DNA of 64,000 nt from an uncultured Clostridia bacterium. GTDB lineage: Bacteria > Bacillota > Clostridia > Oscillospirales > JAAYOS01. Position 1 is the stretch's first letter. Every line of letters starts with the position of its first letter. Shown in pieces: positions 2,880-24,564 of the stretch. Position numbers and translations under genes: made by a program. The DNA is taken from the NCBI GenBank assembly GCA_947593925.1, contig CANQDU010000002.1:186001-250000 (forward strand). The letters are read 5' to 3'. Below the pieces are notes generated by a model. That model worked only from the letters and a program-made list of their open reading frames with translations, did not search any database and had not been told where the DNA came from.

Positions 2880-5249
2880 ATGGAAAATACAGAGAAAAAC
2901 GTCACAACTCTCCCGATGCTTATACTGCGCGGGCTCACCGTGTTCCCGCGCATGATAATGTTCTTCGACGTCGCGCGCGAAAAGAGCGCCGCCGCTATCG
3001 ACGCGGCGCTGCGCTCCTCCGATCAGCTCGTGTTCCTCGCCGCGCAGAAGGACGTCCAGCAGGAAGACCCGTCGCCGGACGAGGTCTACGAGGTAGGCAC
3101 GGTCTCGAAGGTGTGCCAGGTGTTCAAGCTGCCGGACGAGACCGTCCGCGTCCTCGTGGAAGGGCTCTACCGCGCCCGCCGCGCCGGGGTCGCGAACGAG
3201 GGCGGCTGTTACGTCGCCGACGTCGAACGGCTCGAGGACAGGCCGTCCGCAAGGATGTCGGCAAAGCGGCTCGAGGCGCTTGTCCGCCACGCGCACAGCG
3301 AGTTTGAGCGGTACGCCGAAATGTCGCCGCGCATCTCGCAGGAGATACTTCACGGCGTACTCGGCGCGGACGACGCATCCTACCTCTCCGACTACATAGC
3401 CCAGAACCTCCCCGTGGCGGTAGAGGCAAAGCAGTCTATACTCGAGGAGCTGCGCGTGGCACAGCGCCTCGAGAGCGTCGCGGCGCTGCTCGAGAGCGAG
3501 ACCGAGATAATCGAGCTCGACCGGGGCATACAGTACCGCGTGCGTCAGCGAGTGGGGCAGAGCCACAGGGAACAGTTCCTGCGCGAACAGCTCCGCGCCA
3601 TTCGCGAGGAGCTCGGCGAGGAGCCGGAGGAGACCGGCGCGGAGGATTACCGCCGCCGCATAGCCGAGCTGGAGCTCGCTCCGGAGTACAAGGAAAAGCT
3701 TACCAAGGAAGTGGCGCGGCTCGAGATGATGCACCCGTCGTCCGCAGAGGCGGCGGTCTCGCGCACCTACCTCGACACCGTCCTCGAGCTCCCGTGGAAC
3801 GTCGAGACAAAGGACAACACCGACCTCACCCGCGCCGCCCGCATACTCGACAGGCAGCACTACGGCCTCGAGAAGGTCAAGGAGCGCATACTCGAGTTCC
3901 TTGCCGTGCGCAAGCTGAAGCCGGACATAGGCGGGCAGGTGATCTGCCTTGTCGGTCCTCCGGGAGTCGGCAAGACCTCTATAGCGATGAGCCTCGCCTC
4001 CGCCATGGGACGGAAGACGGCGCGTCTCAGCCTCGGCGGCATACGCGACGAGGCGGAGATACGCGGCCACCGCAAGACCTACGTCGGCGCCATGCCGGGG
4101 CGCATAATGAACGCCCTCGCGCAGGCGGGCTCGAAGAACGCCGTGCTCATCCTCGACGAGGTGGATAAGCTCGGTGCGGACTTCCACGGCGACCCCGCCG
4201 CGGCGCTTCTTGAGGTGCTTGACGCTGAGCAGAACCACGCCTTCCGCGACCACTACATAGAGATACCCTTCGACCTCTCGCAGACGCTGTTCGTCACCAC
4301 GGCGAACACTCTCGACACCATACCGCGCCCGCTGCTCGACCGCATGGAGGTAATAGAGCTCTCGAGCTACACCGACGAGGAGAAGATGAAGATAGCGACG
4401 AAGTACCTTCTCCCGAAGCAGATGGCAAAGCACGGACTCACACCCAAGACCATGCGCGTTGACGGAAAGGCCATACGGGACGTCATCACGCTCTACACGA
4501 GGGAGAGCGGCGTCCGCGGTCTCGAGCGCGAGCTCGCTTCGCTCTGCCGCAAGGCGGCAAAGAAGGTGGCCTCCGGAGAGGAGTCGGTCCACATCCGCGC
4601 GCGCGACCTCGAGACGCTTCTCGGGCCGCACCGCTACAAGCCGGAGCGCCGGAGCGGACGGGACGAGGCGGGCGTCGTCTGCGGCCTCGCATGGACGTCT
4701 GTCGGCGGAGAGATACTTGAGACCGAGGCCGGCGTCATGCCGGGCACCGGAAAGATAGAGCTCACCGGCAACCTCGGCGACGTCATGAAGGAGAGCGCCC
4801 GCGCCGCGATAAGCTATATCCGTTCGGTGGCGGACGAGCTCGGCATAGACCCGGACTTCTACAAGACAAAGGACATACATATCCACTTCCCGGAGGGCGC
4901 GATACCGAAGGACGGGCCTTCCGCCGGCGTCACGATAGCGACGGCGATATGCTCGGCGCTCCTCGGCGCGCCGGTCCGCTCGGACGTCGCCATGACGGGA
5001 GAGATAACCATTCGCGGCCGCGTCCTGCCGATAGGCGGCCTCAAGGAAAAGACGATGGCGGCGTATCGGAACGGCATCCGCACGGTGATAATACCCGAGG
5101 ACAACGAGAGCGACCTCGCGGAGATAGACCCGACCGTCCGCTCGGCGCTGAACTTCATCACGGCGGGGAGCGCGCTCGACGTGTTCAAGGCCGCCATTCT
5201 GCCCGTAGGAAGCAAGGAGCCTGCAAAATATGCCGATAAATCTGCATAA
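2880..5249 (+). CDS. lon: ATP-dependent protease La (Lon)
   Basis: GPPGVGKTS Walker A, ILDEVDKLG, PKDGPSAGVTIATA catalytic Ser motif; ATG at 2880. Confidence 0.95.
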   Translation: MENTEKNVTTLPMLILRGLTVFPRMIMFFDVAREKSAAAIDAALRSSDQLVFLAAQKDVQQEDPSPDEVYEVGTVSKVCQVFKLPDETVRVLVEGLYRARRAGVANEGGCYVADVERLEDRPSARMSAKRLEALVRHAHSEFERYAEMSPRISQEILHGVLGADDASYLSDYIAQNLPVAVEAKQSILEELRVAQRLESVAALLESETEIIELDRGIQYRVRQRVGQSHREQFLREQLRAIREELGEEPEETGAEDYRRRIAELELAPEYKEKLTKEVARLEMMHPSSAEAAVSRTYLDTVLELPWNVETKDNTDLTRAARILDRQHYGLEKVKERILEFLAVRKLKPDIGGQVICLVGPPGVGKTSIAMSLASAMGRKTARLSLGGIRDEAEIRGHRKTYVGAMPGRIMNALAQAGSKNAVLILDEVDKLGADFHGDPAAALLEVLDAEQNHAFRDHYIEIPFDLSQTLFVTTANTLDTIPRPLLDRMEVIELSSYTDEEKMKIATKYLLPKQMAKHGLTPKTMRVDGKAIRDVITLYTRESGVRGLERELASLCRKAAKKVASGEESVHIRARDLETLLGPHRYKPERRSGRDEAGVVCGLAWTSVGGEILETEAGVMPGTGKIELTGNLGDVMKESARAAISYIRSVADELGIDPDFYKTKDIHIHFPEGAIPKDGPSAGVTIATAICSALLGAPVRSDVAMTGEITIRGRVLPIGGLKEKTMAAYRNGIRTVIIPEDNESDLAEIDPTVRSALNFITAGSALDVFKAAILPVGSKEPAKYADKSA

Positions 5250-16987: not shown

Positions 16988-17484
16988 TGACAAGACGTGC
17001 CGCGCGCGAGGCAGCGCTGCAGATAGTTTTTGAGATGAGCTTCAAGCTGCCGTATGAGGCGGCAAACTGGCGTCTCAGCGACGACGGACTGAAGAGCCTC
17101 TCCGACCAGACCGAGCTTTTTGACATGCCGATAGACAGCGATTCTCTCGGCTACATAAACGCGGTCGTAAACAACATCGTCGAGCACTATGACGAGATAG
17201 ACGGTTATATCTCAAAGTATTCCCACGGCTGGAAGATCTCGCGGATAAGCCGGATATGCCTCGCGGTGCTGCGGCTGTGCATCTGCGAGCTCAGATATAT
17301 GAGCGACACGGTGCCCGCCTCGGTCGCGATAAACGAGGCGATACGCATGCTCAAGTGCTACGATGCGGACGACAGCGCGCCCTTTGTCAACGGCATCCTC
17401 GGCGCGTACTACCGCTCGGAGCACGGCGGAGAAGCGCCGGAGCTTGCGGAGGAGGCGTCCGAGCCGGAGGACGAGACAAAGTGA
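16987..17484 (+). CDS. nusB: Transcription antitermination factor NusB
   Basis: RRAAREAALQIVFEM...SVAINEAIRMLKCYDADDSAPFVNGILGA. Confidence 0.92.
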   Translation: MTRRAAREAALQIVFEMSFKLPYEAANWRLSDDGLKSLSDQTELFDMPIDSDSLGYINAVVNNIVEHYDEIDGYISKYSHGWKISRISRICLAVLRLCICELRYMSDTVPASVAINEAIRMLKCYDADDSAPFVNGILGAYYRSEHGGEAPELAEEASEPEDETK

Positions 17485-18449
17485 GCCTCTTTCTCGGCTT
17501 TGACACCTCGAATTACACGACCTCAATAGCCGCCGTCTGCGGCGGCGAGGTTGTGGGAAAGAAGCGTCTGCTCGACGTGAAGCCGGGCGAGCTCGGCCTT
17601 CGGCAGAGCGACGCGGTGTTCGCACACACAAAACGCCTCCCCGAGCTTGCGGAGGCGCTGTTTTCTTGTATCAGCGGCAGTATCGCCGCCGTCGCGGCGT
17701 CCACACGTCCGCGCGCCGTCGAGGGCTCGTACATGCCCTGCTTCCTCGTCGGCGAGGGACAGGGGAGGACGCTCGCGGCCGCCGCCGGCGTACCGTTTTA
17801 CGCTGTGTCGCACCAGCAGGGACACATTGCCGCCGCCGCGTGGTCGGCGGGGAGATTTGATTTGCTCGACCGTGAGTTTCTCGCGTACCACGTCTCGGGC
17901 GGCACGACCGAGCTTCTTCACGTCACGCCCGGGGAGGACGGACTACCGGTCTGCCGCCGCGTCGGCGGCACGGCGGATCTCGCGGCGGGACAGGTGATAG
18001 ACCGCTGCGGAGTCGCGCTCGGACTCGGGTTCCCGGCGGGGCCGGAGCTTGAACGCCTCGCCCTCGAAAGCGAGCCGGTGAGGCCGTTCCTGCCGAAAAC
18101 CTCCGGCGGAGATTTCTCGCTTTCCGGCATCGAAAACAAGTTCCGCGAGCTGATAGGCGCGAGGCCGCCGGAGCATATAGCGCGGTTCGTGATAGAGAGC
18201 GTGTCTGCGGTGCTCGAGCGCGCGGCGGCGCGCGCCCTAGAGGAGCGTCCCGGCCTCGAGCTTCTCTGCGCCGGAGGCGTAATGTCAAACGGAATAATAC
18301 GCGCACGGTTTGAGGACAGGTTCGGCGCGCACTTCGCCGAGCCGTCCTTTTCAAGCGACAACGCCTGCGGCGTCGCGCTGCTCGCGGAGAGACTTTACAC
18401 GAGGGAGGGGAGAGAATGGAACGCACGGTCTACACCGTCTCGGAGATAA
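17481..18449 (+). CDS. TsaD/Kae1-like (peptidase M22 family) protein, paralog type
   Basis: FLGFDTSNYTTSIA, SHQQGHIAAAAW (H..H metal motif), AYHVSGGTTELL, GGVMSNGIIR; GTG start at 17481. Confidence 0.8.
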   Translation: MSLFLGFDTSNYTTSIAAVCGGEVVGKKRLLDVKPGELGLRQSDAVFAHTKRLPELAEALFSCISGSIAAVAASTRPRAVEGSYMPCFLVGEGQGRTLAAAAGVPFYAVSHQQGHIAAAAWSAGRFDLLDREFLAYHVSGGTTELLHVTPGEDGLPVCRRVGGTADLAAGQVIDRCGVALGLGFPAGPELERLALESEPVRPFLPKTSGGDFSLSGIENKFRELIGARPPEHIARFVIESVSAVLERAAARALEERPGLELLCAGGVMSNGIIRARFEDRFGAHFAEPSFSSDNACGVALLAERLYTREGREWNARSTPSRR

Positions 18450-19691: not shown

Positions 19692-19934
19692 ATGGCGGAA
19701 AAGAAGAAGCCGAGCTTTGAACAGTCGCTCAAAAGGCTCGAGGAGATAGCGGCTCTGCTCGAAAACGGAGAGACGCCTATCGAGGAGTCGCTGAAGCTCT
19801 TCGAGGAGGGCGCAGCGCTCCTCAAGGACTGCAATAAGATCCTCGAGGAAGCGGAGAAGAAGGTGAGCATCCTCGCCGGAACATCCGAGGAGGGCGAGCC
19901 CGTCACCGAACCGTTCGGGGGAGCGGAGGAATGA
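19692..19934 (+). CDS. xseB: Exodeoxyribonuclease VII small subunit
   Basis: SFEQSLKRLEEIAALLENGETPIEESLKLFEEG. Confidence 0.94.
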   Translation: MAEKKKPSFEQSLKRLEEIAALLENGETPIEESLKLFEEGAALLKDCNKILEEAEKKVSILAGTSEEGEPVTEPFGGAEE

Positions 19935-20800
19935 GCGCGCACCGCGACGCGCTCGCGCGCGAGGTAAACGCCGTGCTTGACGCGCTCCTGCCGGAGGGCG
20001 GCGAGATGTCGCGCCTGTACGAGGCGATGCGATACAGCGTCCTGAACGGGGGAAAGCGTCTCCGCGCGGTGATGCTCCTCGAGTTCTGCGAGCTGTTCGG
20101 CGGCGACAAAGAGCTTGCGATGAGGTTCGCGTGCGCCCTGGAGTGCATACACGCCTACTCGCTCATCCACGACGACCTGCCCTGCATGGACGACGACGAT
20201 ATGCGCCGCGGAAAGCCGTCCTGCCACATAGCGTTCGGTGAGAATGTCGCCGTGCTCGCGGGCGACGCGCTCCAGACCTTTGCCTTCGAGCAGATGGCGC
20301 TGGCGGCGGCGGAACGTCCGTCGGTGGGATTGGAAGCTCTGCGCGTCGCGGCGAGCGCCGCCGGTCCCGCGGGGATGTGCGGCGGGCAGCTCCTAGACCT
20401 GGAGAACGAGACGCGGCGCGCCTCCCGCGCGCGGCTCGAAATCACCTGCCGCCTCAAGACCGGCGCGCTCATCTCCGCCGCCTGCGAGATGGGCGCGATA
20501 CTCGGCGGCGCGGACGCCGCCGGGCGCGCGGCGGCGCGGAAGTACGCGGAGGGCGTCGGCCTCGCGTTCCAGGTGATGGACGACCTGCTCGACGTTGTCG
20601 GCAGCGCCGAAAGCTTCGGCAAGGCCACCGGCGCGGACGCTCGGCGCGGAAAGAGCACGTTTGCCTCCGAGCTCGGCCGCGAGGAGTGCGAAAGGCTCAT
20701 CCGTTCCCTCACCGACGGGGCGGCGGCAACGATAAGAGACATACCCGGCTCGGAGGAGCTCACGGCGCTCGCCGAAGAGCTTGCCCGGCGCAGCTTCTAG
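19931..20800 (+). CDS. ispA: Polyprenyl synthetase (farnesyl/geranyl diphosphate synthase)
   Basis: GGKRLRAVM, DDLPCMDDDDMRRGKP (DDxxxxD), QVMDDLLDVVG. Confidence 0.93.
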   Translation: MSAHRDALAREVNAVLDALLPEGGEMSRLYEAMRYSVLNGGKRLRAVMLLEFCELFGGDKELAMRFACALECIHAYSLIHDDLPCMDDDDMRRGKPSCHIAFGENVAVLAGDALQTFAFEQMALAAAERPSVGLEALRVAASAAGPAGMCGGQLLDLENETRRASRARLEITCRLKTGALISAACEMGAILGGADAAGRAAARKYAEGVGLAFQVMDDLLDVVGSAESFGKATGADARRGKSTFASELGREECERLIRSLTDGAAATIRDIPGSEELTALAEELARRSF

Positions 20801-20825: not shown

Positions 20826-21296
20826 ATGTTTATTCCGTATCTGTCCATATCGGCGGCGGTGAGCTTTCTCACCGGCAACAGGATAATAAACGCCGCCGTT
20901 GCGGCATGGCTTATAGCTCAGGTGACGAAGGTAATAGTGGAGTCGCTCCGCCTGAAGCAATTCGTGTGGAGGCGGTTCTTTGTCGGCTCGGGCGGGATGC
21001 CCAGCTCGCACTCCGCCTGCGTCTGCGCGGCGACGGTCGCGGTAGCGCGCGTCGCGGGGATACAGAGCGTCGAGTTCGGCATATCCGCGATATTCGCGTT
21101 CATCGTGATATTTGACGCGGTGAACGTCCGCCGCGCGGCGGGGGAGCACTCCCACGTCCTCAACGTCATGATACAGAGCGCGGACAAGCAGTCCCCCGAG
21201 CTGTTCGGGCGGCAGATGAAGGAGCTTCTCGGTCACACGCCGCTTCAGGTGTTCGTGGGGATGCTCCTGGGCGTCGCCGTGGGCTTCTTTATGTAA
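20826..21296 (+). CDS. Divergent PAP2 family (DUF212) membrane protein
   Basis: NAAVAAWLIAQVTKVI...VGSGGMPSSHSACVCA...FDAVNVRRAAGEHS. Confidence 0.88.
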   Translation: MFIPYLSISAAVSFLTGNRIINAAVAAWLIAQVTKVIVESLRLKQFVWRRFFVGSGGMPSSHSACVCAATVAVARVAGIQSVEFGISAIFAFIVIFDAVNVRRAAGEHSHVLNVMIQSADKQSPELFGRQMKELLGHTPLQVFVGMLLGVAVGFFM

Positions 21297-21336
21297 TTGC
21301 GCTGTTTAATTCGTTAAACAGAATTTATTCCTCCCC

Positions 21337-21365
21337 TTGAATAAAGGGGAGGTTTGTGTTATAAT
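21337..21365 (+). promoter_or_regulatory. Sigma-A type promoter for OLE RNA
   Basis: TTGAAT (21337-21342)-17-TATAAT (21360-21365); predicted +1 near 21372, at the base of the RNA terminal helix. Confidence 0.65.
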
Positions 21366-21373
21366 AAGAAACT

Positions 21374-22014
21374 GCATAATGGTGGCGCAGTATCCTAGTC
21401 AGAGCAGCCGGCTCCTAGGACGGGCCTAAAAATCCGTTGAAGGGCACATCGATGAAGTCCCTGGTGTTTGCTTCTTTCGCCCAGACTGGGGTGGATGCTG
21501 GGGGTTAAGGTTTCAGGGCGGCTTGCAACGGCATGCATCCCCCGACCCTGTTTCCGTGGAGACCCGTTGTTGTGCCGTACTCCTATCGGACGCGCGAAAG
21601 CGCCCCGGGGTAATCGGTACGAGGCGGGGTGAAACCTGTATTGCGGTGCGAAAGGCCGCTTGCGGCCCGTGTAGCGCTGTGTGCAGCGTAGCCTGCCTTG
21701 AGTGGGCATGGCGGATCCGGGATCAGGCGGGTTCGACGCCGGCCGCGGCGGACTCGTTATTGCTCGAAGAAATCATGCCTGCAAAAGAGGCTAAGAGTCG
21801 GTTTGCCTGCTGTGGAAATCACCTAGGCTGTCCGAGACTGATGTCTGGGGCGGCGAAAGGATTGCAGTACGGACTAAGTGGTAATCCGGTACCCGTTTTG
21901 GGCGAGGGCTTCAAAGGGAAACCGCCCCCTGCGGCGACGCGGGGCAGCCCTCCGTGGAAATCAGACCGGACCTAAGCCGTAAGATTTACTTTCGCTGCCG
22001 CCACTTTATTATGC
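21374..22014 (+). ncRNA. ole: OLE RNA (ornate large extremophilic RNA)
   Basis: Non-coding gap between ispA/PAP2 and the oapA-like gene in the xseA-xseB-ispA-OLE-oapA-dxs-tlyA-nadK-argR-recN context; terminal helix GCATAAT-g-GTGGCG-CAG (21374-21390) with CTG-c-CGCCAC-ttt-ATTATGC (21995-22014); internal hairpins including GCGC-GAAA-GCGC (21592-21603) and GGCCG-CTTG-CGGCC (21654-21667). Confidence 0.9.
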
Positions 22015-22078
22015 GTATCCCGCCGTAAATGCGGCGGGACGGAGCTTGTAATTTTTTAATTCAAGGAGCGGATATTTT

Positions 22079-22711
22079 ATGGAAGGCGACCGAAGTAGCA
22101 CCGAACCGAAACGAAGCGACGCGCGGCTTACCGACAAGAAAAAGAAGCCGCCGTCATCAAAGAAGAACTTCAACCCGCGCTGGATAATAACCCTGTTCTT
22201 TGTAACTATGGCGATATCCATGACGATGTCGTTTGTCGCAAACGAGGCGCTGCGCGGAGTGGGAGACATAGTCGCGTTCTGTGTGCTCGGTTTTTTCATA
22301 CTGCTCGGTATAGTTTTTGACGTTATAGGCGTTGCCGTGACCGCGGCGGACGAAAAGCCGCTCAACTCCATGGCCGCCCGCAAGGTGAACGGCGCGCGCG
22401 AAGCGCTCGCTCTCGTGCGGTCGGCGGACAAAGTGTCCTCCTTCTGCAACGACGTTGTGGGCGACATCTCGGGTATAATCTCCGGCGCTACCGGCGCCAT
22501 CATCGCCGCGCGCCTTGTCACGAGCTTCGACCTGCCGAACGTCATCGTGAGCCTGCTGATGAGCGGAATGATCTCCGCCCTCACGGTCGGCGGCAAGGCC
22601 GTCGGCAAGAGTCTCGCGATAAATCACAGCACGGTCATAGTCCACTATGCGGGGCGCGTGGTGTACTTTGTCAAGCGTCCCTTCACCTTCGGAAAACATA
22701 AGCAGAAATAA
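22079..22711 (+). CDS. oapA: OLE-associated membrane protein OapA
   Basis: Directly after OLE RNA; hydrophobic segments and FDVIGVAVTAADEKPLNSMAARKVNGAREALALVRSADKVSSFCNDVVGDISGIISGATGA. RBS AAGGAG upstream. Confidence 0.87.
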   Translation: MEGDRSSTEPKRSDARLTDKKKKPPSSKKNFNPRWIITLFFVTMAISMTMSFVANEALRGVGDIVAFCVLGFFILLGIVFDVIGVAVTAADEKPLNSMAARKVNGAREALALVRSADKVSSFCNDVVGDISGIISGATGAIIAARLVTSFDLPNVIVSLLMSGMISALTVGGKAVGKSLAINHSTVIVHYAGRVVYFVKRPFTFGKHKQK

Positions 22712-22740: not shown

Positions 22741-24564
22741 GTGTCCATCCTCGATGGGATACATTCCCCCGAAGACGTAAAAAAGCTGGATATGGCGCAG
22801 CTTGACGAGCTTTGTGCCGAGCTGCGCCGCGAAATAACGGACGGGGTGCTCCGCACCGGCGGGCACCTCGCCTCAAGTCTTGGCGCGGTGGAGATCATAG
22901 TTGCTCTTCATCGTGTTTTTTCGACTCCGAAGGACAAGATAGTCTTTGACGTAGGCCATCAGGCGTACGCGCATAAGCTCCTCACCGGACGCCGCGAGCG
23001 GTTTGACACGCTCCGCCGCTTCGGCGGACTTTCCGGCTTTCCCGACCCCGCCGAGAGCGAGCACGACGCGTTCCGCGCCGGCCACGCCTCAACCTCGGTG
23101 TCCGCCGCGCTCGGCATGGCGCGGGCGAGGACGCTTAAGGGAGAGGACGGCAACGTCGTCGCCCTGCTCGGCGACGGAGCGCTCACCGGCGGGCTCGCGT
23201 ACGAGGCCCTCACCGACGCAGGACAGTCCCGCGAGCGCCTCATCGTCATACTGAACGACAACGAGATGTCGATAGCGCACAACGTCGGCGGCGTGGAGCA
23301 GATGCTCGGAAGACTGCGCCTCCGCCCGGGATACATGCGCGCGAAGGACAAGTTCCGCGCCGCCACGAGCAGAGGACGCATCGGACACACCCTGTACCGC
23401 TTCGTACACGGCGTGAAGCAGTTCCTGAAAAGTCTTATCATCCGCTCGAACATATTCGAGGACATGGGATTTACCTACCTCGGCCCGGTGGACGGGCATG
23501 ACGTGAAAAATCTCTGCCGTCTGCTCGAGCTCTCAAAGAGCTACGACGGGCCCGTTCTGATACACGCGATCACGGTCAAGGGCAGGGGATACGGCCCTGC
23601 GGAAAATGACCCGGAGAAGTATCACAGCGTCGCGCCGGCGGGAAGCGCAAAGCCGGGGATGAGCTTTTCCCGCGCGTTTGGGGACGCGCTCGTCGAGCTC
23701 GCGCGCGAGGACGGCAGGATATGCGCCATCACGGCGGCAATGGAGAGCGGGACCGGGCTCGAGAAGTTCGCGCGGGAGTTTCCCGAGCGCTTCTTTGACG
23801 TGGGCATAGCGGAGGAGCACGCTATGACGATGGCGGCGGGACTCTCGGCGGCGGGGATGAAGCCGGTGTTTGCCGTCTACTCCACCTTCGCGCAGAGAAG
23901 CTATGACGAGCTGCTGCACGACGTCGCTCTGCAAAACCTGCCGGTAGTTATAGCCGTAGACCGCGCGGGGCTCGTTGGCGAGGACGGCGCGACGCACCAC
24001 GGCATCTTCGACCCAGGGTTTCTCGCGCAGGCTCCGGGCGTCAGGATCTACTGCCCGGCAAACGCTGCGGAGACGCGGGAGTATCTGCGCCTCGCGCTCT
24101 CCTGCGGCGAGCCGTGCGCGATACGCTATCCCCGAGGGGGAGACGACGGCCGGTTCATCGGAGTTTCAAAGGGCGCGGCGGAGGTCATAAGAAGCGGCTC
24201 GGACGTGACGCTTGCCGCCTACGGGCACATGCTTTCAAACGCTATAGACGCCGCCGGTATCCTCGAAAAGCGCGGCGTCTCCGCCGAGATAGTGAAGCTG
24301 AATACTCTCTCGCCGCTCGACGCCGAAACGGTGTTTGCGTCCGCGCGGCGGACGGGGCGGCTCGTCATCGCGGAGGACTGCACCGCCGCAGGCTCCGCGG
24401 GTCAGCGCCTCGCGGCCGAAGCGGCGTGCGCCGGCGAGAAGTTCGGGATAAGGCTTGTGAACCTCGGCGACAGGTTCTGCACTCACGGCCCTACGGCCGA
24501 GCTCGAAAAATATTACGGCATCGACGCCGAGAGCATAGCGGAGGTGGCGCTGTGGCAAAAATGA
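22741..24564 (+). CDS. dxs: 1-deoxy-D-xylulose-5-phosphate synthase
   Basis: GGHLASSLGAVEIIVALHRVF, GDGALTGGLAYEALTDAG, LYTHVCG-type TPP motifs, transketolase C-domain. Confidence 0.95.
   Translation: MSILDGIHSPEDVKKLDMAQLDELCAELRREITDGVLRTGGHLASSLGAVEIIVALHRVFSTPKDKIVFDVGHQAYAHKLLTGRRERFDTLRRFGGLSGFPDPAESEHDAFRAGHASTSVSAALGMARARTLKGEDGNVVALLGDGALTGGLAYEALTDAGQSRERLIVILNDNEMSIAHNVGGVEQMLGRLRLRPGYMRAKDKFRAATSRGRIGHTLYRFVHGVKQFLKSLIIRSNIFEDMGFTYLGPVDGHDVKNLCRLLELSKSYDGPVLIHAITVKGRGYGPAENDPEKYHSVAPAGSAKPGMSFSRAFGDALVELAREDGRICAITAAMESGTGLEKFAREFPERFFDVGIAEEHAMTMAAGLSAAGMKPVFAVYSTFAQRSYDELLHDVALQNLPVVIAVDRAGLVGEDGATHHGIFDPGFLAQAPGVRIYCPANAAETREYLRLALSCGEPCAIRYPRGGDDGRFIGVSKGAAEVIRSGSDVTLAAYGHMLSNAIDAAGILEKRGVSAEIVKLNTLSPLDAETVFASARRTGRLVIAEDCTAAGSAGQRLAAEAACAGEKFGIRLVNLGDRFCTHGPTAELEKYYGIDAESIAEVALWQK

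Follow-up and report, generated by a model that had tools for sequence, protein, structure and literature searches.

A complete OLE RNA with a covarying terminal helix and a probable promoter of its own in an uncultured Oscillospirales bacterium

The stretch of DNA analyzed here (64,000 nucleotides, hereafter the window) contains a genuine and complete OLE RNA, an ordinary, typical member of a well-described family. The data together are best explained by a full-length RNA of ~640 nt that probably has its own promoter and would act in a membrane RNP with OapA, OapB, OapC and bS21, a reading to which we assign a probability of about 93%. Few conserved bacterial RNAs of unknown biochemical function are as large as OLE RNAs, and this locus is a further clean and complete case, in which all known partners are present and a strong MpfA is not.

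The Rfam OLE model (RF01071) matched the forward strand at 434.9 bits (cut-off 50; E = 2.2e-124), and the match spanned positions 1–616 of the 616 in the model, with no truncation. It was the only Rfam model to exceed its gathering score within the window, and the only OLE copy in the genome (1.87 Mb in 19 contigs). The original prediction, made from the sequence alone, had named the RNA as OLE and proposed a search with the OLE model as a check; this search, and the oapA gene directly downstream, bear the identification out. The gap between the DUF212 gene (ending at 21296) and oapA (starting at 22079) had been described as free of credible reading frames. No gene-like ORF was found in it, and its frames of 104 and 150 amino acids overlap the RNA. 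The predicted folding energy of the RNA was 3.1 SD lower than that of dinucleotide shuffles, and its minimum free energy (MFE) structure joins both ends. Coordinates of all features are listed in Table 1.

Table 1. Features of the OLE locus and genes for partner proteins. Positions are those of the window unless preceded by a locus label.
Feature	Position	Strand	Remarks
ispA (farnesyl diphosphate synthase)	19931..20800	+	NF045485 above cut-off
DUF212 "divergent PAP2" gene	20826..21296	+	PF02681, E 1e-42; between ispA and OLE
Terminator-like hairpin, CCTCCCCTTGAATAAAGGGGAGG then TTTGTGTTAT	21330..21352	+	Between DUF212 gene and OLE RNA; shares bases with the -35; consensus match only
Putative sigma-A-type promoter, TTGAAT-17-TATAAT	21337..21365	+	Extended -10 (TG); 10 of 12 matches; about 8 nt upstream of terminal helix
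OLE RNA	21366..22020	+	Full-length RF01071 match; predicted RNA ends about 21371/21374 and about 22014
Terminal helix core, 5' strand GTGGCG	21382..21387	+	Pairs with 21999-22004; outer extension 21374-21380
Long-range helix, 5' strand CAG-tat-CCTAG	21388..21398	+	Partner 21823-21830; absent from RF01071 drawing
P4 hairpin, CGGGCCTAAAAATCCG	21421..21436	+	Conserved A-rich loop, TAAAAA
22-nt insertion relative to OLE consensus	21650..21671	+	GC hairpin at variable stem tip; contains the hairpin at 21654
GGCC palindromic loop	21741..21744	+	Matches L9.3; all commonest loop types of relatives carry GGCC
Long-range helix, 3' strand CTAGG-CTG	21823..21830	+	Pairs with 21388-21398
Terminal helix core, 3' strand CGCCAC	21999..22004	+	Pairs with 21382-21387; outer extension 22008-22014
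oapA, membrane protein partner, 210 aa	22079..22711	+	Homologue adjoins OLE in 29/30 loci
dxs	22741..24564	+	TIGR00204 above cut-off
OapB candidate, 97 aa	L116:3798-4091	-	Flanked by map and infA; closest solved structure OapB 7k9b, E 3.3e-6
OapC (YbxF, L7Ae family)	L117 about 3326-3571	-	Between rpoC and rpsL

The genes around the RNA run in the order spoIIIAH, asp23/yqhY, nusB, tsaD-like, xseA, xseB, ispA, DUF212, OLE, oapA, dxs, tlyA, nadK, argR and recN. This agrees with the order first read from the sequence, from xseA through ispA, a PAP2 gene and the RNA to recN, and extends it upstream by the four elements from spoIIIAH to the tsaD-like gene. (The TsaD-like protein between nusB and xseA, at 17256-18446, is encoded by a 397-aa frame from 17256, and its true start probably lies further in.) The yqhY gene ranks high among published OLE neighbors (PMC12265935). 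Among named species, Oscillibacter valericigenes and Butyricicoccus pullicaecorum also have the locus. By OapA, the nearest named relatives are uncultured "Lapin" Clostridia MAGs (97 and 95% identity), followed by Oscillospiraceae MAGs; we take "Lapin" to refer to rabbit samples. The host, itself an uncultured Clostridia MAG, had been predicted to be a sporulating, Clostridia-like organism, and the SpoIIIAH and SpoIID genes present in the window fit a spore-forming host.

For the analysis of conserved pairing, 104 full-length OLE RNAs from relatives within the order and from GTDB genomes were reduced to 82 non-redundant sequences at 92% identity and aligned. Their ends were located with an nhmmer profile; anchoring with regular expressions had recovered 31 of 110 loci, some of them wrong. 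The consensus ends are drawn unpaired in the RF01071 structure line. In the alignment, 95.5% of the cells in the six-pair core of the terminal helix were paired, with all six pairs formed in 62 of the 82 RNAs and at least five in 80. When partners were shuffled 1000 times, 80.4 ± 1.0% were paired (maximum 83.8%) and no shuffle reached the observed value; partner shuffling keeps the relatedness among the sequences, and the difference does not amount to a formal probability. Two-sided changes were found at four of the six pairs, the second pair, for example, occurring as TA (40), CG (26), GC (5) and AT (3), and the compensatory types were spread over many different lineages. With the 3' strand offset by 1, 2 or 4 bases, pairing fell to 28–40%, and offsets of -3 and +3 left 87% and 74% paired, respectively, because this strand is compositionally repetitive.

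The terminal helix is thus real and supported by covariation, which was the check proposed for it in homologous loci. Of the 16 pairs originally drawn, however, the 6-bp core is the part that stands. The outer register GCATAAT/ATTATGC was paired in 40% of the full set, and the outer extensions differ among OLE RNAs in both length and register. The inner CAG/CTG extension (21388-21390 with 21995-21997) was paired in only 78% of cells. The published OLE model places a P1 in domain 2 (PMC12265935), and the terminal helix is probably this P1. The Rfam structure could be extended by this covarying helix.

The same CAG takes part in a long-range helix that was paired in 98.8% of cells among the 82 RNAs, with some two-sided changes. 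We infer that this helix corresponds to the published P2 and lies near an OapA site, a palindromic OapA site having been described in or near P2 (PMC12265935). A local hairpin at 21393-21420, also part of the original prediction, reuses the CCTAG of the long-range helix and is not conserved: it was paired in 67% of cells overall, and several of its pairs were kept in only 19–38 of the 82 RNAs. Since the bases of the CAG/CTG extension and of this hairpin are shared with the better-paired long-range helix, these two elements probably do not represent the functional pairing, even though the single-sequence MFE structure adopts the end-closing form. All strings quoted in the original prediction, its three hairpins included, are present where it placed them, but the other two hairpins, GCGC-GAAA-GCGC (21592-21603) and GGCCG-CTTG-CGGCC (21654-21667), occupy variable stem tips, and relatives in the order do not conserve them.

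OLE RNA forms dimers, and the published cryo-EM structure assigns the A-rich loop of P4 to dimer bridge B1 and the L9.3 palindrome to the kissing-loop bridge B3 (PMC12286853). Both contact sequences, TAAAAA in the P4 loop and GGCC in the palindromic loop, are intact, and at the level of sequence the OLE RNA of the window retains its dimer contacts. We considered the possibility that this copy is a decaying, non-working pseudogene, since it scores 434.9 bits compared to 470 for the best relatives and carries the 22-nt insertion. The full-length match, the conserved helices and loops, the intact promoter and genes for OapA, OapB and OapC, and the conservation of OLE in congeners all argue against decay, which we regard as extremely improbable.

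The predicted start from the promoter upstream of the RNA falls near 21371-21374, the latter being where the outer terminal helix begins. Among the 79 loci with enough upstream sequence, 66 had a -10 box located 4–19 nt before the core helix, compared to a mean of 16.5 and a maximum of 27 in 200 shuffles, and 38 of these 66 had a -35 as well. OLE thus probably has its own predicted start site in Oscillospirales, with most relatives sharing the promoter position, and the conserved promoter predicts where the RNA begins. A dedicated OLE promoter was not found in the open papers searched, a set that does not include the 2006 discovery paper. The OLE cluster of H. halodurans has been reported as one polycistronic RNA (PMC12265935), so that a dedicated promoter may not supply most of the OLE RNA. 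Accordingly, the sole source of the RNA might be a long ispA-to-recN transcript from which it is processed, the promoter-like site being fortuitous. The recurrence of the -10 box at about the same place, often with a -35, and the terminator-like hairpin upstream of the promoter make this unlikely.

At the other end, a terminator-like hairpin occurred within 130 nt past the terminal helix in 21 of the 82 loci, compared to 0–5 in shuffled sequences. Between OLE and oapA in the window, there is a GC hairpin at 22019-22038 (some form of which is present among congeners, L024 and L026) with a T run that comes 13 nt too late for a canonical terminator; the 3' end is therefore not explained by such a terminator here. 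We consider it fairly probable that in Oscillospirales OLE is an autonomous transcription unit, with a conserved extended -10 sigma-A promoter at the closing helix, a terminator in some lineages, and regulation separable from that of the isoprenoid/DNA-repair cluster, unlike in H. halodurans.

The position of the RNA directly upstream of oapA, with no canonical terminator between them (22015-22078), would also suit a mere structured leader of an oapA-dxs mRNA, a cis-regulator rather than a free-standing RNA. The terminator-like hairpins in relatives speak against such a leader, as does the known abundance of the OLE homologue as an RNP RNA (PMC12265935). Five OapA loci had no OLE nearby (L078, L088, L092, L103 and L108), but OLE was present elsewhere in four of these genomes. 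The OLE–OapA partnership may thus survive separation of the two genes, which speaks against a leader acting purely in cis and hints at a partnership in trans; several of the contigs concerned are short, and separation is not certain for each. Overall, we find a leader role highly unlikely. The fifth genome, the Ca. Butyricicoccus stercorigallinarum MAG (L092), has an OapA gene, and no OLE was found in it. Another genome (G014) has two OapA genes, one beside OLE and one apart (contigs C41 and C94), reflecting either a paralogue or a mixed bin.

The protein encoded directly downstream of the RNA is OapA: in 29 of 30 loci a homologue adjoins OLE, and the remaining locus is on a short contig. OapB was sought by gene position and the candidate then compared with solved structures; it matched nothing in Pfam or NCBIfam, and the similarity is hence modest. 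Two KOW matches from Pfam, in frames of 142 and 176 aa, were rejected as OapB: one (L113) maps to the L24 gene within the ribosomal cluster and the other (L114) is presumably NusG. A second L7Ae protein (L118) was likewise set aside as OapC, being YlxQ-like. The genome also encodes bS21. A search of the genome for CNNM/MpfA gave nothing above cut-off; the sub-threshold match was OapA itself (16.3 bits to CNNM), for which weak CNNM homology has been published (PMC11332333). As judged from predicted genes, OapA, OapB, OapC and bS21 are all present with no strong CNNM/MpfA, which matches published profiles.

Within the order, the same 43 of 99 genomes carried both OLE and OapA, and the other 56 carried neither. 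Strong CNNM matches (E below 1e-20) were found in 4 of the 43 genomes with OLE and in 49 of the 56 without (Fisher p 9e-16, with kinship ignored). These counts independently reproduce, inside one order, the published OLE/OapA association (43/43 compared to 0/56) and the OLE/MpfA anticorrelation (PMC11332333). The four exceptions with OLE/OapA plus a strong, MpfA-type CNNM are G042, G048, G053 and G088. An apparent loss of OLE in a congener (G004) was rejected, as its contig stops inside dxs and the absence is an assembly gap.

We propose that the ~640-nt RNA is transcribed most likely from its own sigma-A-type promoter, with a start at or next to the terminal helix, and that read-through from ispA-DUF212 may be an additional source. 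The RNA would fold with a closing terminal helix, a long-range, P2-like helix and a standard domain 1, and, together with OapA, OapB, OapC and bS21, would form a membrane-associated RNP. Assembly and membrane location have been demonstrated experimentally for the Halalkalibacterium homologue, and in H. halodurans coping with cold, alcohol, high Mg2+ and poor carbon sources depends on the RNP (PMC11332333, PMC12265935). By homology, the RNP described here may have the same role in stress.

Compared to known systems, the locus is closest to the full-length RF01071 type, with which it shares the whole model, the conserved sequence blocks, the partner genes, the paired ends and a neighborhood of ispA, oapA, dxs, tlyA, argR, recN and yqhY. 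It differs from this type in its hairpin insertion in one stem tip and in the DUF212 gene that separates ispA from OLE, an arrangement seen in 11 of 30 loci, including this one. The host resembles the small-genome gut Bacillota MAGs, being one itself. However, the OLE RNAs of that group have P7–P9 shortened or missing and their genomes largely lack OapB and OapC, whereas the copy in the window matches the model throughout, with all partners present. With the MpfA/CNNM Mg2+ transporters, the locus shares a weak similarity between its OapA and the CNNM domain, while the genome yielded no stand-alone CNNM protein.
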